Positions 13,308 to 28,572 of a stretch of DNA of 36,982 bases are shown here, piece by piece. Every line of letters starts with the position of its first letter. Positions within the stretch are counted from its first letter, which is position 1. This stretch comes from an uncultured Bacilli bacterium. Its GTDB lineage: Bacteria; Bacillota_I; Bacilli_A; ML615J-28; CAG-313. Both the position numbers and the translations under genes were made by a program. Under the pieces are notes generated by a model that made no database searches, was not told the DNA's origin, and saw nothing but the letters and a program-made list of their open reading frames with translations. The DNA lies in NCBI GenBank assembly GCA_947591495.1, contig CANQDG010000019.1:1-36982 (forward strand). Reading direction: 5' to 3'.

Positions 13308-16300
13308 TTATTCTAAATTCGATTCTTTAGTTGCTAAATTATTTTTACGATTCATTAATTTTACAACTATTGCTATAACTGTAATCGTTATTAAAGCAGC
13401 TATGATAAAGAGCGTTATACCTGTAAAGTTATTACTATATGCTATTTCGATGCTATTAGTATAATCTACACCTTCAAATGTTACATGAGCTGTATATCTA
13501 ATCTTTCCACCTTCAATAGCTTCTTGCGTTATCTTAGCTTCTTTTTCAACTTTACCACCACAATTTTGACATACAAATGTTGCTTTAGCACTCTTATAAT
13601 CTTCAGACCAATTCCAAATTGGCTCTTGATATTCGTGTGCTTTCTTAGCTATTGTTTCATCTTTTGTATCGGTATATGTTGTGCCACTTTCTAATGTTAC
13701 ACTTGCACGATATTGTAGCACGCCTTCTTCTACACAACTTGCTTCTTTTGTAATTTCACTTGTTACTTCTGCTTTTTCTGTGCGTGTTGTTTGACATCCA
13801 TTCTTACATGTGAATTCGGCTTCTACTTCATAGCTCTTTGTTTCTTCGTTCCACTTCCAAGTCCACTTTGGTTCACCTTCATAATCATGTCCGGTTGCCT
13901 CTGTGTATTCTTTGATGTGGCTCTTTCCACATTTACTACAGCTATATACCGTATATCCTCCCTCTTCACAACTTGGTAAGATTACACTCTTATCTCCTTC
14001 ATCATCACACTCTTCTAAACTTCCTTCTTTAACTTTACCACATGTTGCACATCTTTGTTGATGACTGATTCCTTCTTCGACTGCTTCATATTCCCACTTA
14101 TGACCTAATGCTTCGACATATTCATCATCATATTCATCTTGACATACTTCACAACGATAATGACTATATCCTCTTTCTTCACAGTTTGCTTCCTTCGTCC
14201 ATTCTTTTACTACTTGACATGGCTCTTTTTGAACGGCTCTTTCATCACCTTCACAGCACTCTCTTGTACAATGTCTTTCATGTTCATGCGTTCCTTCGAT
14301 ATGTGCCCAGTTACTCCATTCATGTTCTAATTGTTCAATGGTTTCTGTTATGCAATCTTCTTCAGTAATTTTGCCATCTGGTGATGTTACGCATGCTTTG
14401 TATGTTATTGTTCCACTGGCAAAACATGTTGCATCTACGATGATTACATCAATGCGATTGTCGCCTTCAGCTCCTACTTCTGCTCTTACACTTACTTCTT
14501 CATCACATCTTTGACATTTGAATAAGCCGACTGCTATTTGATAATCTTTTGACCAGGTAAATCCTTCGAATGCCCAGTTATGGCCTAAGGCTTCAACATA
14601 TTCATCATCATAGTAATATCCACAGCCTTCACATGTATATCTGGTATATCCTTGTTCTACACAAGTTGCCTCATATTCTACTCCTTCATCAAATTGACAT
14701 GCTACTTCACGACTTTCACTACATTCTTCACGTTGACATACTTGAATGTGTTTATGTGTAGTTCCATCTCCAGTATATGTTCCACTTGTTCCCCATAAAT
14801 GGCCTAAGGCTTCACCTTCAACGACATATTCATCCGTGAATGTTACTTCATTATAGTAAACGGTTGCTTTGTAAGTTGTCTTTCCGGCCATAGTACATGT
14901 GGCGTTAGTTTCTTCAATTCTAACATTTCCATCATGTGATCCTATTTCATTTACTTCAATCTCATGGCGCTCTTCACATCTTGTACATTTGAAACTTGCG
15001 ATGGCTTTATACCCGCCTACTTCTTCATCTTTTTCCCAATGCCATGTTGGATCTCCTTTGAATTCATGTCCTAAAGCTGGAATAGTTCCTTCATGAGTAT
15101 CAGTGTATATTGCTTGGTCAAAATTAACGGTTGCTTGATATATTCCTTTTCCATCAGCCTCACAAGTTGCTTCATCTTCAACACGCATTAATTCAACTTG
15201 GGCATCCAGTAAATGAGACTCTTGACATCTTGAACATTCAACATATAATTTTGCCATAAGAATGCCTTTTTGAACTTCTGTCCATTCCCATTTTGTGATT
15301 GTCCAGTTATGTCCTAAAGCTTCGCTTCCTTCTATAGTTTTTTCATCTTCATAAACTTGATTGTTAAAGGCAATTTGCACACGATAAATAGTTCTTTCAC
15401 TATCTGTACAATTTGCATCAAAATGTTTACTAGATGCTTCAATATCTTCTACGATATGTTTGTGCGTTGAATCATTTTCACATTCAAAGGTTACTTTGGC
15501 TTTACTATAATCATCTGACCATTCCCAAACTGGTTCTTTCCACTTGTGTCCGGTTGCTTGAACGATTACTTCTTTCGTTGATTCTTGATTTTCTAATGCC
15601 GCATACTTTCCTATGTAGCCTTCTTTCTTGACTAATTCGGACATCTTAACACTGGCACTATATTTAGTCTTGCCATCTGTTTCACATCCTACTTTTTCAA
15701 CTACTTCGCTTGTTAATTCTTCTGCACTTAATTCATAACCTTTACTTTCTTTGTTATAGTCACATCCACTATTACTGCAGAATAAATATAGCGTTGCTTT
15801 ATATGTTCCATCTTCTTTTGCTTCCCATACAAAGCCATCTTTGTTTTCACCTTTACTAGAATCAATAAACCAGTTATGGCCTAAGGCTGGAATTGTTACT
15901 CTTACTGGTCCACTTGTATCTGCAGAATAATATGTTACTCCTTCAAAGTCTACTTGGAAATAATAATAGTATTCGCCTGCTTCTTCACATGTTGGATCCC
16001 ATATTTCCGTCGATTCTTCATCGATTGCACCTACTTGTTGGACTTCGGTTCCACAAACTTTACATTTGAAAACGGCTACGACTCCTACGATTAAACCACT
16101 GGCATCATATTGTGGTATCCATCTCTCTGGTCGTGGATCAAGCATTCCACTTGTTCCTGGTTCTTTAAACCAACTATGTCCGGTTGCTTCAATCGTAACA
16201 TCATGATATCCTACTTGCTCTTTCGCTCCGGCATATTCGCCTTCTTCAATCTCGACATTTATTCTTACTTCATATCTTGTCTTTCCTGGTGTTGTACAAG

Positions 16301-19300
16301 TTGCATCATATGTGTAAGTTTTATCGCTTACTACTGTGATTTTGCCAGTTAATTCTTTGCCGGTTAATTCTTCATATGTCTTATCACAATTTTGACATTT
16401 TAATTCTAATACTGCTTTAACTGGAACATTATCCTCAATGGTCCATTTGATTCCATCTAAATGTTCTCCTACTAATGTATCAATATAGAAATAATGTCCT
16501 AAAGCTGGAATTGTAACTTCATATTCAGAATTTATATCATTTGCAAAAGTTGTACCACCAGTAAATCCATCAGGCTTTTGAACAGTTGCAAGATATTTTA
16601 CTGAACCTGAATTTGTGCAATCAGGATTTTTACGACTATCTACTACTTCAACAATACCATTATTTAAAGTAACTACTACTTCAGTTGTGACACCACATTC
16701 ACTACATTTGAAATGAGCGGTGGCAATAGCCATTGTTCCGTCTGCAACCCATGTCCATCCAGCATATTTTGTGCCTATATTATAAGTATCTATATCTAAA
16801 TCATATTTATGGCCTTCTGCTGCTTTAACTGTATCATTTTGTGTGTTTTGTAAGTCACTTGGACTTCCTTTATACTCATCAAATGTTACTGTTGCAGTAT
16901 AAACATAATATTCATTTTCTGTACAAGAACCTTCATTATATCTAGATTCCACTTTTGCTTCCACAACATGTTTATGGTCTGGATTGTTTTCACATTCAAA
17001 TGTTGCAGTGGCCGTGGCCTTCGTATGATCATATTCCCATTCCCATTGCCATGTTGGAGCTTTCCATTTATGACCAGTTGCTTGTTCTAAAGAATCTATA
17101 GAAACTATTTTACCTTCATAATGTTTTTGACTTTCTAATATGCTTAAGAATAAATCATATCCAGTCATATTTTCAAATAAACTATCATCAATTGTTACCT
17201 CATATGGCGTATATGCGGCATTTTCACAATCAGCTTTCACTTTAGTTAAGTTAGTAACTTCTTTTGTCACAGCCTGCTTTTCTTCACAATCAGTATTTAC
17301 ACATTTTAGATGCAAAGTTGCCTTATATGGTGAACTTTCATCATCGATAGTCCATCCATTAACACTATCAGGATAATTTAAATCAACTACCCAATTATGT
17401 CCTAGTGGAACACCATCTTCGAAAGAATGTTCATCTTCTAAGATTGCATCATCATAAGTATCTTTATTTGTAAATTTAGGATTAGCTTTAAACTTTTTCG
17501 TTAAATTAGTACTGTATGTTTTCATAGCTGGCGTATCACATGTTGCAGCGGCTTCACTAATCATTTTAACATCATCAGAACTATCAGTGCCTAATATCAT
17601 TGTTTCACCACAACCAGCATGATCACACTTTATACTTAATACAGCTTGTGGTTGTAAAGTAGCTTCGATTGCTGCCATATTTATCCAAGTCCATCCTGAC
17701 TCACTTAATACCCAGTGATGACCAGTTGCTAAATTACCTGTTTCTTCTACTTTTTTAATGGCCTCAGCTGCTAATTTATCATTTTTAGTTGTAGCTAAAG
17801 TGATATCTTCTAATTTTAAAATATATTCATATTCATATTTTTCATCAGCAATACAGCTTTGTAGTGTATGAGAAATAGCTTTTATTTCTTTTATTACAAT
17901 TTTTCCACTTAAGCCACAACCATTTTCACATTTCACATTTAATGTTAATTCTGCTGTGCCATTATTTAATTCCCAACTAGGCTCACCATCGATTACCCAA
18001 GTATGTCCAGTTGCATCAATTTCATCTTCTGTTTTACTAGCTGTATTTTTACCATCTAGGGCACTGATATTATCATATTTAGTAAATGGTGATTCTAATT
18101 TTTCATCTGATAAATTAGGTAATATTATTGTTACATTATATTCATTATAACCTTTTTCGGTACAACTAACTGGATGATTTACAGGGCTTACTTCTTGTCT
18201 AAGTGTATGTGTGATACCACATACTTCGCATTTAATATGTAGTCCCACTACATAATAATCTTCTTCTTTTACCCAACTGATACCATCAGTATATACTGAA
18301 TCTGGATCAACTATCCATTTATGACCTGTAGGATTACCACTGTCTTCTTCTAGTCTTAATGAAATAGATGTTGCGCCAGCTACAAGCATTCCGTTTGCGG
18401 TAGTCGTAGTTTCACCTATTAAAATACGCTTATGTTCAAAATCATTTTCAATATCAAAGAATTCTGAAGTTATTACTTCTTCATAAATAACAGTTGCAGA
18501 GGTGTCACATTTAGCAGCAGCACCAGCTTTACCTTCAATTGTTACTATGATAATGATACTTCCTGGATCATCATCTTCTAATTCATTAGAACAAATTAAT
18601 TTAATATATACTGTGTATTTATTATCTTTAGCATCTTTTTCCCAGTGCATGCCTTCTTTAAACTCAAAGGCTTGAATTTGTTCTTTGGTAATACCATTTA
18701 TTACACCTTCTGGTATCGTTATATTATCTGAAATTTGACCATTAAATGTGCTATCTACTTGCCAACGATGACCAATAACTTTATCATCATTATCTTTAAA
18801 TGTACCAGTAAAAGTTTGTCCTTGATATAATACAACGGCAGTATAAGTTACTTCACCAGGTGTCGTACACGTTGATCCTGCTGCAGGTGATCCTGCTGTG
18901 ACAACCTCTATTTCATATGTAAAGCCACAATCATCATAAGCACATTTTAAATATAATGTTGCATAATATCTCTCTTCATCACTATTCCACTTGAAATAGA
19001 ATCCTTTATTCCAGCAGATATCATCAAGACCAGCAGATTCAAGATCAGGATTAGGAATAGTACTACCATCTGGCTTTGTCACTTTTCCAGCAAATTCACC
19101 AGCTTCATTAGGTATAAATTTGTGTGTTCTTGGTGTTCCTTCTTCACCATTTGTACTTGTAGTTCGTGTTTCCTCGTTAAGAGCAAGTATTAAAGCTATT
19201 GAGTTAGTTGCATCATTAATTTTATCATAATATTCATTATAAACTGTGTCTAAAATGTCACCTGCTTTTTTAGCACTATCTAATGATGATTGGTATCTTG

Positions 19301-22300
19301 CAATATCTTGCTCAGTTATTTTGGTTAATTCATTTAAGTTGTCTTTATCTATTATAACAAAATATTTAATATATTCACCATGATCACAATTAGCTTTTAT
19401 TGTTTCTTGATGAATTTGTTCGCCTTTTAAAGTTATTGAACGATGACTTATATCATAAGGGGTTGTGTCATCAGCTGAACATCTTGAACATTTTACATAG
19501 AATGTTACTTCACTTGTTCCATTCCATTCAAAAGGTTTATCGGTATCTATTATCCATTCATGACCAATCGCAAGACTATCCACATTATAAGTAACAGCAT
19601 TTAGAGTTTTATTATGGCCTTCATGAACAAAATCTAAAATGACATTTGTATGACGTAATTCTTCAAGTCTACTCTTATAAGGTTCATCTAGTTCTTGACC
19701 TTCCTCTAGTGCTTGTTCCATTTCTACTAATCTTTTATATTCTTCGATATTTTCAGGTTTTGCAGCTAAATAACCATTTCGATCATAAAATGAATCTTGT
19801 TTAGTAAATGGTGAAACAATTTCCTGATCACCTAATATACCCATAACATAAGCATATAAATCAAGTTCTACTTCGTATTTTGTATATGCTACAAACAAAC
19901 ATGTAGCATCTATTACATTACGTGTTACATTGTTGACAGTGATTTCTATTCTTGCATCACATCCATCTGCTACACATTTCATGCCTAAAGTTGCTATAGC
20001 ACTACCATCTGCTTGAATAGTAAATTTCCATCCACCAGGTAAAGTATCATTATCAACAATTGGTTCCCATCTGTGACCCGTATATTTTTGTTTTTCATCA
20101 GTAATCTCATTATAGCTACTTATTTTTTTATCTTCTATATTACTAAAAATTTCTGAGAAATTTTCTTTTATTTCTGTACCTTTATATTTTGGATTAATCC
20201 TAAGTTTATCAATGTCAAGTTCTATTTCATATTTTGTAAAACCATTCTTTTCATGTGTTGGCGCTACTTCACTTTTAATAATATAATATACATAGTTTTC
20301 ACCTAAATCGCCATCAGGTCTATTAGTTGTTAGTTGATATGTAATATCATATGGATCATTACAATTTTTACAATATAAATGTAATATTACTGTATCAATA
20401 TTCCATTCCCAACCATCTACACCTTTAGTTGTATCGATTATCCATGTATGGCCCAAAGCTTCATCTTTAGGATTTATATCATTATAAGTACTTTCCATGT
20501 TTTGTTGAACCATTGTTATACCAGTAAAAATATCAGGACAATTACTTAGTTCAGTAAATACTTCATCACCACGTTTTTCATATCTTTCATTTTCAAATTT
20601 AATTAAATCTGTTTCATGTAATTGGGCTAACCACTGCGTGTAACCATTACTTTCGCATGTTGCAGGGACATATCCAGCTTTACTAGAAACACCTTGTACA
20701 AGTTGGTTTCGATCTACTTCAGCTACTTCTATTATAGCTTTTTCAATATCTTCTTCAAGTTCAAATACTTCTGGTCCACCTTCTTCATCTTGAGCTTGAA
20801 TGACATTAGTACATGTTAGATGAACAAATACTTTGAAGGTATCATTTTCAAGTTTTACCCATTCATAACCATTCTGTATGGTAACCATTATAATCTTTTG
20901 TTCACCAATTTGATCACCTACTTTATATTTAGCTTCGGCGGTATTATCTATTATCCATGTATGTCCTCTAGCAGAAGCACCTGGTATGTAATAATTATCT
21001 GGAATATATACAAATGATTCATCATCGCCAAAATTTGTTGGTGATTTTTCTTCACCATTTATACTTTCTCTACCATCTTCATAATATATTCTTTTTGTAA
21101 ATTTATCTAACTCAGTTACGATATGATTTGAAGTCGTAGTTAATTTTGTAAATAATTCTTTAGTTAATGTGAAACTTCCTTCATATGTTATTCCACCTGC
21201 GGCTTCACAACTTGCGGATGTAACATTTTTATTCTTGGCAAAACCATTATTTAGATCTTCATAATTATCATCACTTGATAATTCTAATTGTGCACCACAA
21301 TTTTTACATTTAAAATATATAACTAATTTAAAGTCTTCTTCTTGCGAACTTGTCTTAGAAACCCATTCAAAACCATCACCATCTCTTGATGTATCTAATT
21401 CCCAAATATGACCTGTTACAACTTCGCCTTCGACATTTTCAGTTTGATTAATCGATATACTATATTCTTTTAACGTATCTTTTCGTGATAAATGTGCAGC
21501 ATCAGTATTTGTAATTAAAATAACATCTTTATCTTGATGAGTTTTTAAATCACCTATATCATCAACTTTAGTTGCTTCTAATATTTGTTCAATCAATAGT
21601 GTGCTAGATAACGTTACATATCCTGTTTCAGTACATTTATTATAAATGTGATCACCTTCAACATTGACATATATTGTTATTTCGGTAGCCAACTTAGAAC
21701 TATTATATTTTTTACATTCATTACAAACTAATTTGATTGTTAGTTGATAAATCCATTTGTTTTCTAATCCTTCGACTAATTTTTCACCTTTAAATTTATT
21801 ATCTGCAACATCTGCTACTTCCCAAATATGTCCTGTTGCAAGAGTGCTTGAAGTTGTATTAGTACATTCATAATAATCACTATCACCTAACTTATTTCCT
21901 TCATCTACTTTTTTATCATTATAAAACTCATCAAACGCTCTAATTTGTGCAGCATCACCACTACCTGCTAAACTTTTGATATATTCTATGGTGATATTTA
22001 TGCTATATTTGCGCAAACCATCATGTACACAATCAAGTTCATTTATTTCTTCAATTATTTTATTGTTTTCCCCATCTGTTGCATATTCTGAAATATTTAT
22101 AATAGCACTTGCAGTTTTATCTTTACCACAATCACATTTTAGATTTAATATTACTGATAATATGTCATGTGTATGTGTACTGCTACTACCTGATGAACTT
22201 ACCCAGATAAAACCATCACCATCAATTTCTTTATCTACATACCACTTATGAGGTAGTGCTGATGCTTTATTATAATAATCATCATATGTAGAACTAATAG

Positions 22301-25061
22301 ATGCAAGTCCACTAGAACTAACAAAGCCATCATAACTAGTAGACTTATAAGTAATATCATCGTCATTGTTAGCTATTCCATCTGATCCATATCTTAAAGC
22401 CAAATAAGGGACTTCTTCTTCGTAATAATCATATTCTCCATTTGAATGAGTTGCCTCATGATTGGTCACAGTAGAAGTAACAAGGTCTATCTTAGAATTA
22501 ACTTTAAAAACAACAGCTTGGAAATGATCACCATCATTTACACATCTAAAAACAAGGACTAAATAATTTTGATAATCATTAGCTTTAATCCACAAAGAAC
22601 CTTGACCATCATCGTAATAGAATCGCGAATCATCTTCACTTTTAGGATCAGCATTAAATTCAGCATCTGCATATTCACTATCTTTTGCAAAAATAATTGA
22701 GAAATATTTTCCATCATCAAGGATATATCTATTTTTGTTTTTTTGATCTTGTGTTTTATTTTTCGTACCATCCTTAATAGCTTGAAGTAATTTTCCCTTA
22801 TCAAAAGCAACACTATGAGATTCAGAGCCAATTTCTAATTTTTTAATAGTAGTAGGTATTAAATTCCAACTATGACCCGTAGGATTAGATACCGCTGTAG
22901 CAAGTAATTCACCAACAAAGCTACCACTTTGTAATTTAGTATTTTCCGAATCTTTAATTTCAGGATCATTTGTAAATACTAAGCGTATGCCTTGTTTATC
23001 ATTAAACTCATAACTGGAATTAGGATAATCTAAATTTGAACCACTAGTAGATTGAAAAGTTTGAAAATTTTCATAAAGTTGTTTTTTAAAGTCCGTAAAG
23101 CCTGTATATTCTTCAGTTTCTGAAAAAGCATTAACTGTAATATAATCAATGCTACCACCCTCAGTACATGTTGCTGGCTTTGATTGGGTTGTTTGATTTG
23201 CTGGAATGTTATATATAGTACCGGTAGTTTTAGTATATACATCTCTTTGATAATTAGTAAGATAAGTAGAAGGTTCACGATAACAATAATCATTTTGGCA
23301 AATCATATGTAAATTGGCATAATATTCGCCATCGCTTTCAGTGTGCCATTCCCAACCTTGGTTTCCAGAACTTGTATCTATTCCCCATTTATGTCCTGTA
23401 GGTAAATAGCCACTTTCTACACTACATACATCTTCATATGTTACAAGATTTTCTTCACCACCTGCTTTTTTAAAAACTTCAGCTTTCATGTCAGAATCTG
23501 TAATCATCTTGTCATTTTTATGAGGGAAAATCAAGTCTATATTAATTATATCATCTGCTATAAATTTATTACTATCAATTGAATATCTCGCATTTAAAAT
23601 TTTTTTATCATTAAAAGAAATAAGTTTCTTATAGTTATTATCATTTGATAATTTATTAAGATATTTCAATACTGTTTCATCGTCCACTATTGCATGATTT
23701 AAATAAGTTGCAGTTTGGGTGCATGATGCTTTAAGTAATTTAGCATCATATGCTAAAGGCATTACTATTTTTGCACCATTAAAATCATTACAATAGTCAC
23801 ATTTAAAAATAACATACATAGCACTTTCAAAATGAAGTACATCAGGTAATTTATTCTTATTGTCTTTAAATTGTTTCCAAACCGTTGGATCAAACCTACA
23901 ACCAGAATATCCACCCCAAGTATACATTTGTATTTTTTTATCTGCATCAGGTTGGTTGTCATTATATTCTTTATAATCGGGACAATCAATTAACATACCA
24001 TTTGCATAAGTTGTATCAAATACAAATTGATGTCCAGCTGGGTTCAATTCAGTAAATGCATCTGATACTGCAAACAAGTGACAATAATTTGTATCGTTTT
24101 TTTGTGTACTAATGCCCCAAAAAGCACGTGGTGCAAGACCACCATTATATATAATATTAAGTTGAATATGATTTATTGTTGGCACTGGTAACTGAGGTAT
24201 ATCATTAATATTCATAGTCGTCGCCGATGCATTAAATTTTAACGTTTTAGGTGTTCCACCACAAGGTGTTATAGTTCCGTTTTCATCACTTACCGGAAGA
24301 GCTGTAATTGTTTTAGTTAAAAAGGTCATTTTACCATGAAATGGACACGATTCTCTTTGTTCATCAGTTTTACAATCATTACAAATTACTACACACTTAA
24401 CCGCAAAGGTAAATGTATAATTACCAACAGGCGTGCCATCATCATAAGTTGTTTTCCAAGTAAGTTTGCTATCGAATTCTTTTTGAAGAGCTAGATTTTG
24501 ATCATCAGTAGCCTCAAAATTAAACTTTGTTTGATCGTTATAATCAAAATTTGGAATTTTACCTTGCTGAACATACCATCCAATTCGATATTTTTTAACA
24601 TAATCAGCAACAGTATTTATACTATCATCATCCCAACGGCCATTATCAACTCTATTCATTTCTTTATTGAATGTAACGCCTTTCAAAACACTAACATTTT
24701 TTTCTGTATCATCAATAACAGCTTGATATGATTTTGTATAGTCATAACTGTTACTATCAGCAGTACCAGGCCATTTTTTGCTTAAATAAAATTCAAAGCC
24801 TTCTAGTCTATTAGCATGACCATCTTGTGCATCATTCCAAAATTTTTTATTATAATAAGTTATAATGTCAAAATAAGGAATATATGAGACATTACGGTGC
24901 TCTTCATGAGGGTCAACTGCATCAACCGAGTAGTCTTTTTCTGCATGTACCAATGCTTTATTATTATTACTTAAAGAAGATGTAAAAGCAAATACACATC
25001 CTAAAAGCATAACAAAAAGCAAAAAGATTGAAAAAATATTTTTAATTTTTAATTTTAACAT
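13308..25061 (-). CDS. Giant membrane-anchored surface protein with Cys/His repeats
   Basis: About 3,917 residues (roughly 440 kDa). The ATG at 25061 is preferred over 25073 because the latter overlaps the only SD-like stretch (GGATGG). A Sec signal peptide is followed by a likely cleavage after VHA (residue 40). The body holds nearly 30 modules of about 90-170 residues. A module begins GHxW, continues with a W-rich strand, then a CxxC pair, a third Cys in ATCxxxG, and a Y-x-A-x-V strand. The next GH starts the following unit. Three C-terminal modules (starting GHLW, EHEW, GHKW) are of a shorter, Cys-richer type with YxCxxC. The protein ends with one membrane segment (FTGITLFIIAALITITVIAIVV) and a short basic tail; there is no LPXTG motif. 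The modules resemble ATCTEAG/ALGH repeats of gut Firmicutes surface proteins. Adhesion is inferred, not shown. Confidence 0.9.
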   Translation of the reverse strand: MLKLKIKNIFSIFLLFVMLLGCVFAFTSSLSNNNKALVHAEKDYSVDAVDPHEEHRNVSYIPYFDIITYYNKKFWNDAQDGHANRLEGFEFYLSKKWPGTADSNSYDYTKSYQAVIDDTEKNVSVLKGVTFNKEMNRVDNGRWDDDSINTVADYVKKYRIGWYVQQGKIPNFDYNDQTKFNFEATDDQNLALQKEFDSKLTWKTTYDDGTPVGNYTFTFAVKCVVICNDCKTDEQRESCPFHGKMTFLTKTITALPVSDENGTITPCGGTPKTLKFNASATTMNINDIPQLPVPTINHIQLNIIYNGGLAPRAFWGISTQKNDTNYCHLFAVSDAFTELNPAGHQFVFDTTYANGMLIDCPDYKEYNDNQPDADKKIQMYTWGGYSGCRFDPTVWKQFKDNKNKLPDVLHFESAMYVIFKCDYCNDFNGAKIVMPLAYDAKLLKASCTQTATYLNHAIVDDETVLKYLNKLSNDNNYKKLISFNDKKILNARYSIDSNKFIADDIINIDLIFPHKNDKMITDSDMKAEVFKKAGGEENLVTYEDVCSVESGYLPTGHKWGIDTSSGNQGWEWHTESDGEYYANLHMICQNDYCYREPSTYLTNYQRDVYTKTTGTIYNIPANQTTQSKPATCTEGGSIDYITVNAFSETEEYTGFTDFKKQLYENFQTFQSTSGSNLDYPNSSYEFNDKQGIRLVFTNDPEIKDSENTKLQSGSFVGELLATAVSNPTGHSWNLIPTTIKKLEIGSESHSVAFDKGKLLQAIKDGTKNKTQDQKNKNRYILDDGKYFSIIFAKDSEYADAEFNADPKSEDDSRFYYDDGQGSLWIKANDYQNYLVLVFRCVNDGDHFQAVVFKVNSKIDLVTSTVTNHEATHSNGEYDYYEEEVPYLALRYGSDGIANNDDDITYKSTSYDGFVSSSGLASISSTYDDYYNKASALPHKWYVDKEIDGDGFIWVSSSGSSSTHTHDILSVILNLKCDCGKDKTASAIINISEYATDGENNKIIEEINELDCVHDGLRKYSINITIEYIKSLAGSGDAAQIRAFDEFYNDKKVDEGNKLGDSDYYECTNTTSSTLATGHIWEVADVADNKFKGEKLVEGLENKWIYQLTIKLVCNECKKYNSSKLATEITIYVNVEGDHIYNKCTETGYVTLSSTLLIEQILEATKVDDIGDLKTHQDKDVILITNTDAAHLSRKDTLKEYSISINQTENVEGEVVTGHIWELDTSRDGDGFEWVSKTSSQEEDFKLVIYFKCKNCGAQLELSSDDNYEDLNNGFAKNKNVTSASCEAAGGITYEGSFTLTKELFTKLTTTSNHIVTELDKFTKRIYYEDGRESINGEEKSPTNFGDDESFVYIPDNYYIPGASARGHTWIIDNTAEAKYKVGDQIGEQKIIMVTIQNGYEWVKLENDTFKVFVHLTCTNVIQAQDEEGGPEVFELEEDIEKAIIEVAEVDRNQLVQGVSSKAGYVPATCESNGYTQWLAQLHETDLIKFENERYEKRGDEVFTELSNCPDIFTGITMVQQNMESTYNDINPKDEALGHTWIIDTTKGVDGWEWNIDTVILHLYCKNCNDPYDITYQLTTNRPDGDLGENYVYYIIKSEVAPTHEKNGFTKYEIELDIDKLRINPKYKGTEIKENFSEIFSNIEDKKISSYNEITDEKQKYTGHRWEPIVDNDTLPGGWKFTIQADGSAIATLGMKCVADGCDARIEITVNNVTRNVIDATCLFVAYTKYEVELDLYAYVMGILGDQEIVSPFTKQDSFYDRNGYLAAKPENIEEYKRLVEMEQALEEGQELDEPYKSRLEELRHTNVILDFVHEGHNKTLNAVTYNVDSLAIGHEWIIDTDKPFEWNGTSEVTFYVKCSRCSADDTTPYDISHRSITLKGEQIHQETIKANCDHGEYIKYFVIIDKDNLNELTKITEQDIARYQSSLDSAKKAGDILDTVYNEYYDKINDATNSIALILALNEETRTTSTNGEEGTPRTHKFIPNEAGEFAGKVTKPDGSTIPNPDLESAGLDDICWNKGFYFKWNSDEERYYATLYLKCAYDDCGFTYEIEVVTAGSPAAGSTCTTPGEVTYTAVVLYQGQTFTGTFKDNDDKVIGHRWQVDSTFNGQISDNITIPEGVINGITKEQIQAFEFKEGMHWEKDAKDNKYTVYIKLICSNELEDDDPGSIIIIVTIEGKAGAAAKCDTSATVIYEEVITSEFFDIENDFEHKRILIGETTTTANGMLVAGATSISLRLEEDSGNPTGHKWIVDPDSVYTDGISWVKEEDYYVVGLHIKCEVCGITHTLRQEVSPVNHPVSCTEKGYNEYNVTIILPNLSDEKLESPFTKYDNISALDGKNTASKTEDEIDATGHTWVIDGEPSWELNNGTAELTLNVKCENGCGLSGKIVIKEIKAISHTLQSCIADEKYEYEYILKLEDITLATTKNDKLAAEAIKKVEETGNLATGHHWVLSESGWTWINMAAIEATLQPQAVLSIKCDHAGCGETMILGTDSSDDVKMISEAAATCDTPAMKTYSTNLTKKFKANPKFTNKDTYDDAILEDEHSFEDGVPLGHNWVVDLNYPDSVNGWTIDDESSPYKATLHLKCVNTDCEEKQAVTKEVTNLTKVKADCENAAYTPYEVTIDDSLFENMTGYDLFLSILESQKHYEGKIVSIDSLEQATGHKWKAPTWQWEWEYDHTKATATATFECENNPDHKHVVEAKVESRYNEGSCTENEYYVYTATVTFDEYKGSPSDLQNTQNDTVKAAEGHKYDLDIDTYNIGTKYAGWTWVADGTMAIATAHFKCSECGVTTEVVVTLNNGIVEVVDSRKNPDCTNSGSVKYLATVQKPDGFTGGTTFANDINSEYEVTIPALGHYFYIDTLVGEHLDGIKWTIEDNVPVKAVLELKCQNCDKTYEELTGKELTGKITVVSDKTYTYDATCTTPGKTRYEVRINVEIEEGEYAGAKEQVGYHDVTIEATGHSWFKEPGTSGMLDPRPERWIPQYDASGLIVGVVAVFKCKVCGTEVQQVGAIDEESTEIWDPTCEEAGEYYYYFQVDFEGVTYYSADTSGPVRVTIPALGHNWFIDSSKGENKDGFVWEAKEDGTYKATLYLFCSNSGCDYNKESKGYELSAEELTSEVVEKVGCETDGKTKYSASVKMSELVKKEGYIGKYAALENQESTKEVIVQATGHKWKEPVWEWSDDYSKAKVTFECENDSTHKHIVEDIEASSKHFDANCTDSERTIYRVQIAFNNQVYEDEKTIEGSEALGHNWTITKWEWTEVQKGILMAKLYVECSRCQESHLLDAQVELMRVEDEATCEADGKGIYQATVNFDQAIYTDTHEGTIPALGHEFKGDPTWHWEKDEEVGGYKAIASFKCTRCEERHEIEVNEIGSHDGNVRIEETNATCTMAGKTTYKATVYYNEVTFTDEYVVEGEALGHLWGTSGTYTGDGTTHKHIQVCQREECSESREVACQFDEGVEYEATCVEQGYTRYTCEGCGYYYDDEYVEALGHNWAFEGFTWSKDYQIAVGLFKCQRCDEEVSVRAEVGAEGDNRIDVIIVDATCFASGTITYKACVTSPDGKITEEDCITETIEQLEHEWSNWAHIEGTHEHERHCTRECCEGDERAVQKEPCQVVKEWTKEANCEERGYSHYRCEVCQDEYDDEYVEALGHKWEYEAVEEGISHQQRCATCGKVKEGSLEECDDEGDKSVILPSCEEGGYTVYSCSKCGKSHIKEYTEATGHDYEGEPKWTWKWNEETKSYEVEAEFTCKNGCQTTRTEKAEVTSEITKEASCVEEGVLQYRASVTLESGTTYTDTKDETIAKKAHEYQEPIWNWSEDYKSAKATFVCQNCGGKVEKEAKITQEAIEGGKIRYTAHVTFEGVDYTNSIEIAYSNNFTGITLFIIAALITITVIAIVVKLMNRKNNLATKESNLE

Positions 25062-25104
25062 TTTATTTACCATCCAATAATAATTAATTTTTAATAGTTT
25101 GAAA

Positions 25105-25827: not shown

Positions 25828-26853
25828 ATGATTAAAATTATTGTTGATGCCTTTGGTGGAGATAATAGTCCAATGGCTAATATCGAAGGTAGTATCAAAG
25901 CTCTTAACAAAATAGAAGATTTATCAATTATTTTAACAGGTGATGAAACTATTATAAAAAAAGAATTAGCTAAATATACTTATGATGCTAATCGTATTAG
26001 TATTGTTCATGCCCCTGATGTTATTACTTGTGATGACAAACCAACTGAAGCAATTAAGCATAAAAAAGAAAGTTCTTTAGTTAAGGCCTTAGATTTATTA
26101 AAAGAAAATGATGAAATTGGCGGACTTGTAAGTGTATCCTCAACCGGAGCCGTTTTAACAGGGGCGGTTTTAAAAATCGGCCGCATTCCAGGCGTTAAAC
26201 GACCTGCTCTTTGTCCTATTTTACCAACTATAAAGGGTGGTTTGGTTGGAATTTGTGATAGTGGCGCAAATGCTGAATGCGATAGTTTGTATCTTCATCA
26301 ATTTGCTATTATGGGTAATCTTTATTTGCAAAAGGCCTATAATATTGAAAATCCTCGTGTTGCGCTTTTAAATATTGGAACTGAGGAAGAAAAGGGTGAT
26401 TCTATTCACAAAGAAGCATATCAATTAATTAAAGCTAATCAGGCGATTAATTTTGTAGGTAATATGGAAAGCCGTGATTTATTGACAGGTGCATACGATT
26501 TAGTCGTTTGCGATGGTTTTAGTGGCAATGTCTTATTGAAATCAACCGAGGGTGCTTGTTTAGAATTATTAGGCTTAATCAAAAAAACTTTTACGAAAAA
26601 TTTAAAAACTAAAATTGGAGCTTTAATTTTAAAAAAAGACGTTTATAAAATTAAAGATTTAATGGATTATAATAATTATGGTGGTGCAGTTTTATTAGGA
26701 ACTAAAAAAACCATTGTAAAAGGCCATGGTAATAGTAAAGCTGAAGCCTTTTATCAATGTATTAAACAAGCCTATAATATGGAAAAATCCCAATTATGTC
26801 AAGCTATAGCAGATGAAATTGCTAAAATTACAAGCGAAAATCAAAATAATTAA
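25828..26853 (+). CDS. plsX: Phosphate acyltransferase PlsX
   Basis: Converts acyl-ACP to acyl-phosphate, the acyl donor for PlsY in the first step of phospholipid synthesis. It is a peripheral membrane enzyme. Its 341 residues match the family. Motifs: VDAFGGDNSP at the N-terminus (usually DAMGGD), the STGAVLTGAVL loop (usually SAGNTGA), RPAL, a central CDSGAN segment, NIGTEEEKG and DGFSGNVLLKSTEG. It has its own promoter, and the usual partners fabD, fabG and acpP are not next to it. It converges on the DUF368-PlsC fusion, which carries a candidate activity for a later step of the same pathway. Confidence 0.95.
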   Translation: MIKIIVDAFGGDNSPMANIEGSIKALNKIEDLSIILTGDETIIKKELAKYTYDANRISIVHAPDVITCDDKPTEAIKHKKESSLVKALDLLKENDEIGGLVSVSSTGAVLTGAVLKIGRIPGVKRPALCPILPTIKGGLVGICDSGANAECDSLYLHQFAIMGNLYLQKAYNIENPRVALLNIGTEEEKGDSIHKEAYQLIKANQAINFVGNMESRDLLTGAYDLVVCDGFSGNVLLKSTEGACLELLGLIKKTFTKNLKTKIGALILKKDVYKIKDLMDYNNYGGAVLLGTKKTIVKGHGNSKAEAFYQCIKQAYNMEKSQLCQAIADEIAKITSENQNN

Positions 26854-26865
26854 AATTCATACAAA

Positions 26866-26900
26866 AAGAAGGTATTATCAGTTTTTGGTAATACCTTCTT
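26866..26900. terminator. Bidirectional terminator between plsX and the DUF368-PlsC gene
   Basis: A perfect 12-bp stem AAGAAGGTATTA (26866-26877) with 26889-26900 and an 11-base loop. A T run follows on the minus strand. On the plus strand the T run is interrupted. Confidence 0.82.
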
Positions 26901-28572
26901 AATTATTTTTGAGATGTTTTTTAGCTTTTTTATTTAAAGCTTCTTGAGCCTTTCTTTCATCTATTTCATCAATTTTAGCTTGCATTCTCGTTTTTAAAAG
27001 ATCCGAAAATTCCGCTTTTGATAAATCTTTGTATTCATCATATTCAATTGGTGGTAAAACATGTGTTTCTGGTTCAATTCTTCTAAGGGATGATATAGAA
27101 AAGACTTTCCAACTATCATATAAGACAATCGGTGTAACTTTACAACCACTTTTATAGGCTGGTTGTAAAACGCCTGTATGAAATTCTTGAAGGGTATTAC
27201 GATTATTACCATATTTTCCTTCAATAAATAAGACAAAACTTTCACCATTTTTGAGTCTTTCAGCAACGTTTTTCATTACTTTAACTTGACTACGAATATC
27301 GGTTTTATCGATTGCTTCACCTTTTAACATCGCAAAAGTTTCAATATAAAAATGGTGAACAATTCGCCCTTTATCAACCACCATTGTGCATGGATAATCT
27401 TCAACGGCATTGAAGAAACAACAACCATCATATCGACCTTGATGGTTTACAATATATAAAGTTGGATCTTTGGTTAAATATTCTTTACCATATACTTTAG
27501 GATGAATATTGCCACCCTTGTTAACCTTTCTAACCAGTTTCATACAAAGCGCATAACGCTCTTCAAATGTTAACAGATCTTTTTTAACAATTTTTTGCAT
27601 TTTTATTAAATAATATAAGGCAACAGGAAATTGAATAGCAATTGTAAAATAAAATCTAAACATATTACGCTTTTTCATAGCTTCAATTCGTTTATCATTA
27701 GGATTAGTAAGTTCATATAAAACGATGACCGTAATCATAGCTACTAGAAAAAGAATTATACCAATAACAATTTGACTAGTAGGAATTACTAATGGTGACT
27801 GACGAAAATATGAATTTTCAAAAATACATTGTTTTATAATTACGACGGGACTTATTAAAACAAACGATAAAATTGCCATTTGAACTTTTTTTTCATGGTT
27901 ATTAATTAACCTTTTGATAAGTTTAGATAAAAAGAAAGTTCCAATTCCATAACTAATAAAGAAAACAGCTAAAACTACTAGATTGCCTAAAATGTTTTCC
28001 GCGTTATGAAAATTTAAAAGATCAACAAAGGCCGTATAATAACCAAGCGCTAGTAAAATTACCGCGAAATCCATTCCGGGAATTACTAATGTGCCAGCTG
28101 TAATAAGGCCTACAATTATTAATAAGATATAATTTAGTGGACCCATATTAATGCTTAATTGTACTTCTTCGCCTCTTGTAACTAAAAAAGATAAACCTAA
28201 GACAAAAATAAAGACTAATAACATTACTAATAAATTAGATGGCTTTTTAAATTCACCCTTAAGATTGATAATCATTCTTGGAAGTGAACCAACAATAAAG
28301 CCTAAAATTACTAAAATAATTGGTAATGGATATTTATCATAAATAATACTTACTAAATTGGCACCAACAAGCGATCCTATCGCAAAACCTAAGACTAAGA
28401 AAAAAAGAAAACCAATGCTTTTTTTAAAATCTTTAAGTAATGAACTAATTGCATCAATCATTTGATAATATACGCAAAGAATAATTCCTATAGTGCTTGC
28501 TGAAACGCCAGGAATTGCAATGCTTGCAAATCCCATTAGCATCCCTTTTAGGATAAGAATAATTTTTTTCAT
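26899..28572 (-). CDS. DUF368 (PopT-type) transporter fused to PlsC-type acyltransferase
   Basis: A 557-residue two-domain protein. Residues 1-290 are a DUF368 membrane domain of about eight segments with two pseudo-symmetric proline-glycine motifs, IPGVSAST (20-27) and VIPGMDFA (163-170). DUF368 proteins were recently shown to transport polyprenyl phosphate (PopT). After a linker with one extra membrane stretch (about 305-325) comes a lysophospholipid acyltransferase domain (about 335-515). NHQGRYD holds the HX4D catalytic pair H377/D382, FIEGKYGN (449-456) replaces the usual FPEGTRS block, F464 and G467 follow, and VTPIVL (479-484) is the final block. Separate proteins are the rule for both families. 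The start ATG (28572) opens directly into the first segment. Catalysis looks possible; the acceptor is unknown. The reading frame is continuous, with no sign of a frameshift. Confidence 0.88.
   Translation of the reverse strand: MKKIILILKGMLMGFASIAIPGVSASTIGIILCVYYQMIDAISSLLKDFKKSIGFLFFLVLGFAIGSLVGANLVSIIYDKYPLPIILVILGFIVGSLPRMIINLKGEFKKPSNLLVMLLVFIFVLGLSFLVTRGEEVQLSINMGPLNYILLIIVGLITAGTLVIPGMDFAVILLALGYYTAFVDLLNFHNAENILGNLVVLAVFFISYGIGTFFLSKLIKRLINNHEKKVQMAILSFVLISPVVIIKQCIFENSYFRQSPLVIPTSQIVIGIILFLVAMITVIVLYELTNPNDKRIEAMKKRNMFRFYFTIAIQFPVALYYLIKMQKIVKKDLLTFEERYALCMKLVRKVNKGGNIHPKVYGKEYLTKDPTLYIVNHQGRYDGCCFFNAVEDYPCTMVVDKGRIVHHFYIETFAMLKGEAIDKTDIRSQVKVMKNVAERLKNGESFVLFIEGKYGNNRNTLQEFHTGVLQPAYKSGCKVTPIVLYDSWKVFSISSLRRIEPETHVLPPIEYDEYKDLSKAEFSDLLKTRMQAKIDEIDERKAQEALNKKAKKHLKNN

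Follow-up and report, generated by a model that had tools for sequence, protein, structure and literature searches.

The locus

The window, that is, the whole stretch of 36,982 nucleotides that was analysed (contig CANQDG010000019.1 of an uncultured, gut-type Bacilli bacterium), carries on its reverse strand a single ATG-initiated open reading frame of 557 codons with no internal stops (Table 1). The gene converges with plsX, and a hairpin common to both lies between them as their probable shared terminator. The encoded protein matches two Pfam families, PF04018 (DUF368) at residues 13-246 (75.7 bits for a cut-off of 26) and PF01553 at residues 358-484 (57.3 bits for a cut-off of 23). PF04018 now bears the name undecaprenyl-phosphate translocase-like. 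The uninterrupted frame announced by the first-pass annotation is thus confirmed, and its view of the protein as a lipid transporter fused with an enzyme that acylates lipids is supported by both domain matches and by the predicted PlsC fold of the C-terminal half, hereafter PlsC1.

AlphaFold2 modelling drew on sequences of the window and related loci and gave two models, the later one from an alignment of 33 sequences. This second model has a mean pLDDT of 90, with very low confidence solely at residues 293-301 of the linker (pLDDT <50), and a pTM of 0.60; given these linker and pTM values, it shows no fixed interface between the domains. The stretch spanning residues 289-308 has a mean pairwise identity of 0.55 among homologues, versus 0.53 and 0.50 for the two domains.

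Table 1. Coordinates of the features discussed (positions in the window, or in the locus named)
Feature	Position	Strand	Basis or remark
DUF368-PlsC1 fusion gene	26899..28572	-	557 aa; frame and homologues
DUF368 membrane half, residues 1-291	27700..28572	-	PF04018, hydropathy, model
First motif, P21-T27, PGVSAST	28492..28512	-	usual form PGxSGG
Second motif, P165-A170, PGMDFA	28063..28080	-	usual form PGxSG
Linker, residues 289-304	27661..27708	-	low-confidence hinge 293-301 in model
PlsC1 half, residues 305-557, including N-terminal helices of its own	26902..27660	-	PF01553, 5KYM fold
Catalytic motif I, N376-D382, NHQGRYD (HX4D)	27427..27447	-	alignments
D400, at the position of T. maritima PlsC K105	27373..27375	-	alignment to 5KYM
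Motif III, E451-Y454, EGKY (for EGTR)	27211..27222	-	Y454 replaces T. maritima PlsC R159
Inverted repeat between the convergent plsX and fusion genes	26866..26900	.	hairpin
Y_phosphatase3 genes of related loci	L103 565-1380; L105 2430-3245; L114 2355-3158; L116 609-1397		PF13350

Distribution of the fusion

The search for homologues covered the family (15 genomes), the order (43), the class (395) and the phylum (392). Six genomes, each from a distinct species and together covering several families, carry the fusion, the window's own included. The others are G001 (56% identity), G040 (63%), G033 (46%), G103 (42%) and G503, whose full-length fusion is the same sequence as the one found independently on CANQTM010000002.1, from a rabbit-gut Bacilli genome. 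Because six independent genomes carry the same fusion, an assembly artefact is ruled out, and the join at about 27,640-27,700 envisaged by the first-pass annotation is excluded for practical purposes by the full-length copies of these further genomes. A chance or broken reading frame was likewise discarded, catalytic residues and linker being conserved.

Conservation extends to two more genomes, G013 and G014, in which DUF368 and PlsC1 are encoded by adjacent separate genes, a natural Rosetta-stone pair for the fusion. G014 is the sounder witness, since G013 (L167, L177, L178) is contaminated, with three rpoB matches of which two are clearly different. The arrangement of G015, where the DUF368 gene runs to the edge of one contig and another contig opens with the C-terminal portion of PlsC1, fits the same adjacency without proving it. 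Finally, DUF368 and PlsC1-type genes are both present, unlinked, in G229 and G377. Regarding mobile elements, the fusion was absent from the viral contigs searched, and plasmid records cover at most 44% of the query.

The first-pass annotation knew of no description of this architecture, and our search of the openly accessible literature likewise found no publication reporting a DUF368-acyltransferase fusion; domain databases may already list single sequences of this kind.

A separate clade of DUF368 domains

Hydropathy and model agree on about ten hydrophobic segments in the DUF368 half, with two broken-helix Pro-Gly sites. Both Pro-Gly motifs reported by the first-pass annotation are indeed present, but they do not have the forms usual for the family. 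The first site reads PG[VL]SAST in all 11 DUF368 domains of the module described below, versus PGxSGG in 35 of 44 others. The second reads PG[MVLI]DFA in 11/11, while PGxD occurs in 0/44 others; in the same searches the usual PGxSG was found in 34 of the 44 non-module domains. In the models, each site forms a break immediately ahead of a short helix (residues 20-24 and 164-168), and D168 would lie where the helix begins, at a site presumed to meet the lipid head group. The usual motifs lost here are probably phosphate-site motifs, in keeping with the role we assume for the Pro-Gly sites. No solved relative of this half was found by sequence or fold search.

A maximum-likelihood tree built from 54 DUF368 domains groups all 11 module members in one clade (support 100/100) on a long stem (1.22), and the fused ones form a subclade within it (84/86), which fits a single fusion event. 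A third form of DUF368 was seen at L011 and L012 (G011 and G010) on a very long branch of the tree; its first site reads PGVSAST or PGVSGST and its second PGCSAT.

An acyltransferase lacking the phosphate ligands of PlsC

The top PDB match of the fusion model is T. maritima PlsC (5KYM; E 8.9e-7, prob 1.00, TM by target 0.76), and the next ones are other acyltransferases; the fold search that the first-pass annotation had offered as a possible refutation thus recovered an acyltransferase. HX4D and EG are kept in the fused enzymes, H377, D382, E451 and G452 having been correctly placed by that annotation and being invariant in all six fusion homologues. In T. maritima PlsC, K105 and R159 have been proposed to hold the phosphate of lysophosphatidate (LPA) (PMC6688108). 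Both equivalents are replaced in the eight fused or adjacent PlsC1 (8/8), the EGTR arginine by Y or H and the lysine by D, E or L, and a profile alignment of the fusion to 5KYM shows the same losses. The lysine and arginine are both kept in E. coli PlsC, T. maritima PlsC and 11/11 copies of PlsC2, the second acyltransferase of the module; both are missing from E. coli Aas and from the unlinked PlsC1-type copies of G229 and G377. Moreover, the fusion scores 55 against TIGR00530, below the cut-off of 103. From these alignments, the acceptor of PlsC1 is probably not LPA.

A strict coupling of this loss to DUF368 was considered and failed on a Lachnospiraceae genome (L036), which has a PlsC1-type acyltransferase devoid of both residues and no DUF368. 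Since this relative lost both without such a partner, the loss marks an acyltransferase subfamily and was not caused by the fusion, and the change of acceptor is not bound to the transporter.

Four PF01553 genes are present in the window's genome. The first-pass annotation had asked whether a separate plsC exists; other PlsC-type proteins do occur, the best one in the module, while the PF01553 genes on C22 and C47 have motifs unlike PlsC.

An operon with a lipid kinase and a second acyltransferase

Among the six fusion genomes, five (G001, G040, G033, CANQTM and G103) have the fusion at the head of a conserved operon, with a kinase gene immediately after it and then PlsC2. The kinase, of about 280 aa, is of the YegS/DAGK type (PF00781 and PF19279). 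The gene order is PlsC2, kinase, DUF368, PlsC1 in G013 and G014. In the window's genome, kinase and PlsC2 lie together on contig C30 (L068), apart from the fusion, and a separate diacylglycerol kinase on C14 scores better than that of the module. Many other genomes have the kinase-PlsC2 pair but no fusion, so the pair probably came first as the core of the module, and DUF368-PlsC1 would have been added to it.

Protein identities do not follow the relationship of the genomes. The window and G503 share a kinase 67% identical for an rpoB 55% identical, whereas with G001, of the same genus, the fusion is 56% and rpoB 89% identical. Horizontal transfer of the module would hence be the simplest reading.

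Each of the two unfused PlsC1-type genes of G377 adjoins a FakB-like DegV gene of its own. One tight operon (L184 321-3612, G377:C33) encodes an acyltransferase lacking the lysine and arginine, then, after a gap of a few bases, DegV/FakB and FakA/YloV. FakAB activates exogenous fatty acids in Gram-positive bacteria (PMC10146087), and this neighbourhood of PlsC1-type genes supports a salvage of outside lipids.

Two further arrangements were observed around the kinase. A Y_phosphatase3 gene (PF13350; Table 1) adjoins it in G036, G035, G377 and G034 and is a possible lipid phosphatase partner of the module. At L190 (4094-4939, G038:C22), the N-terminal 80 residues of a module-like DUF368 (with PGLGVST) and the last three quarters of the module kinase are encoded together in one frame of 281 aa, and the PlsC2 that follows is short. 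It looks as if the middle of the fusion had been deleted in frame, by decay or an assembly join.

Proposed function and alternatives

Our preferred interpretation, which we hold tentatively, is that the fusion is a flip-and-reacylate device, a Gram-positive analogue of LplT-Aas within a lipid salvage or remodelling module. We infer the transport direction, the acceptor and the catalytic activity: the DUF368 half would carry a lipid with one acyl chain (a lysolipid, though not lysophosphatidate) from the outer leaflet to the inner one, where the tethered PlsC1 half would add a second acyl chain at the cytoplasmic face. The YegS/DAGK-type kinase would phosphorylate acylglycerol and the LPAAT-like PlsC2 would turn LPA into phosphatidate by acylation; in this way the complete module may salvage or remodel membrane lipids. 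The signature changes of DUF368 and of PlsC1 both seem to point away from a free phosphate group. The presence of a further DUF368 and a further diacylglycerol kinase in the window's genome also favours this interpretation. Counting against it, the Lachnospiraceae acyltransferase lost the two ligands with no DUF368 in its genome, the kinase-PlsC2 pair is common without the fusion, and the fusion stands outside the operon in the window's own genome.

Were the DUF368 half to recycle undecaprenyl phosphate, with an ordinary LPA acyltransferase tethered at the same membrane spot, PF04018 would simply keep the function of a polyprenyl-phosphate translocase family, whose Gram-positive and archaeal members replace VCA0040 in V. 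cholerae (PMC9876793). We consider this unlikely, both DUF368 motifs being changed clade-wide, the LPA-phosphate ligands being lost in PlsC1, and the same genome keeping another, separate DUF368 on C11 with the usual first motif. The fusion also scores 56.8 bits against the NCBIfam PopT equivalog, far below the cut-off of 400, although the separate copy does so too (60.1 bits). The same separate clade, second DUF368 and lost ligands weaken the suggestion of the first-pass annotation that carrier recycling is coupled to LPA acylation; its other suggestion, that a lipid may be acylated during transport, gains support, with PlsC1 as the putative catalyst. The kinase, a member of the DAGK_cat/YegS family, opens a different route, in which the module would return outer-leaflet diacylglycerol left by envelope polymer synthesis: DUF368 would flip neutral diacylglycerol or acylglycerol, which the acidic residue of its second motif may suit, the kinase would make phosphatidate and PlsC1 would repair monoacyl forms. 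With a better-scoring diacylglycerol kinase encoded on C14, and diacylglycerol readily crossing membranes without any protein, this seems rather improbable.

Still harder to credit is a role in synthesis and export, PlsC1 making a special acylated amino- or glycolipid inside the cell and DUF368 flipping it outward. The probable rejection of LPA as acceptor and a weak match of the fusion to the lyso-ornithine lipid acyltransferase OlsA (18.7 bits) agree with it, but no gene for lipid head-group synthesis was recognised in the loci read, and the known transport by DUF368 is inward. Equally little weight can be given to two independent halves, a mere joined operon pair devoid of functional coupling: the flexible linker at 293-301 and the pTM of 0.60, together with the separate halves in G013, G014, G229 and G377, would be expected of such a pair, but the fusion has been kept over six species, with a linker as conserved as the domains.

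Comparison with known systems

The flip-and-reacylate interpretation draws on LplT-Aas, a proven flip-then-acylate pair for lysophospholipids whose genes are adjacent or form one open reading frame (PMC11416262). As here, a lipid flippase is associated with a PlsC-type domain in adjacent genes or a single frame (NCBIfam NF006386), and the Aas acyltransferase, like PlsC1, lacks the lysine and arginine ligands of the LPA phosphate. However, LplT is an MFS protein whereas the transporter here belongs to PF04018, Aas has an acyl-ACP synthetase domain that is absent from the 557 aa of the fusion, and the fusion comes with a lipid kinase and another PlsC. Compared with PlsC-type LPA acyltransferases (5KYM, E. 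coli PlsC), PlsC1 shares the predicted fold, HX4D and EG, but differs by the replaced Lys105 and Arg159 equivalents and by its attachment to a transporter.

Regarding DUF368/PopT, domain family, length and the two Pro-Gly broken-helix sites are the same; the differences are the separate clade (100/100), with PGxSAST/PGxDFA for PGxSGG/PGxSG, and the acyltransferase partner. DUF368-PAP2, PAP2-DUF368 and DUF368-BacA fusions, in which DUF368 is also joined to a lipid-acting enzyme, have been reported (Sit et al., 2022; PMC9876793). There, DUF368 is paired with pyrophosphate phosphatases that act in the carrier cycle, and the text of that report names no acyltransferase partner. For the present fusion, the lipid kinase and second acyltransferase beside it in most of the six species suggest a pathway of lipid salvage rather than the usual recycling of the cell-wall carrier.

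Since 2022, undecaprenyl phosphate has been the one substrate ascribed to the translocases of the DUF368 family (PMC9876793); with the clade described here, the existence of other lipid substrates in the family becomes directly testable. More doubtful than the interpretation preferred above is the broader proposal that this clade flips a lysolipid or acylglycerol in place of polyprenyl phosphate and forms, with acyltransferase, kinase and PlsC2, the first Bacilli-type flip-and-acylate salvage module of the gut, spread horizontally. If true, Gram-positive gut bacteria would gain an uptake route for partly digested lipids, of which LplT and Aas are the Gram-negative counterpart.

Other features of the window and its genome

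The first-pass annotation had taken the convergent plsX to strengthen a phospholipid link. This linkage is ruled out, as the adjacency is not conserved and plsX lies on another contig in 5/5 other fusion genomes. The plsX of the window (25828-26853, +) and its counterpart in G001, a genome of the same genus, share 37% identity; set against the 89% identity of rpoB, plsX seems to have been replaced in one of these two genomes. Elsewhere in the window, 13308-25073 (-) encodes a repeat-built, probably secreted protein of 3921 aa with repeated 'GHxW...CxxC' units and a C-terminal hydrophobic segment, which matches no Pfam family at E 0.01. Finally, two plsY-type genes are present in this 1.5-Mb genome (G000:C10:18947-19492 and G000:C9:16229-16774).
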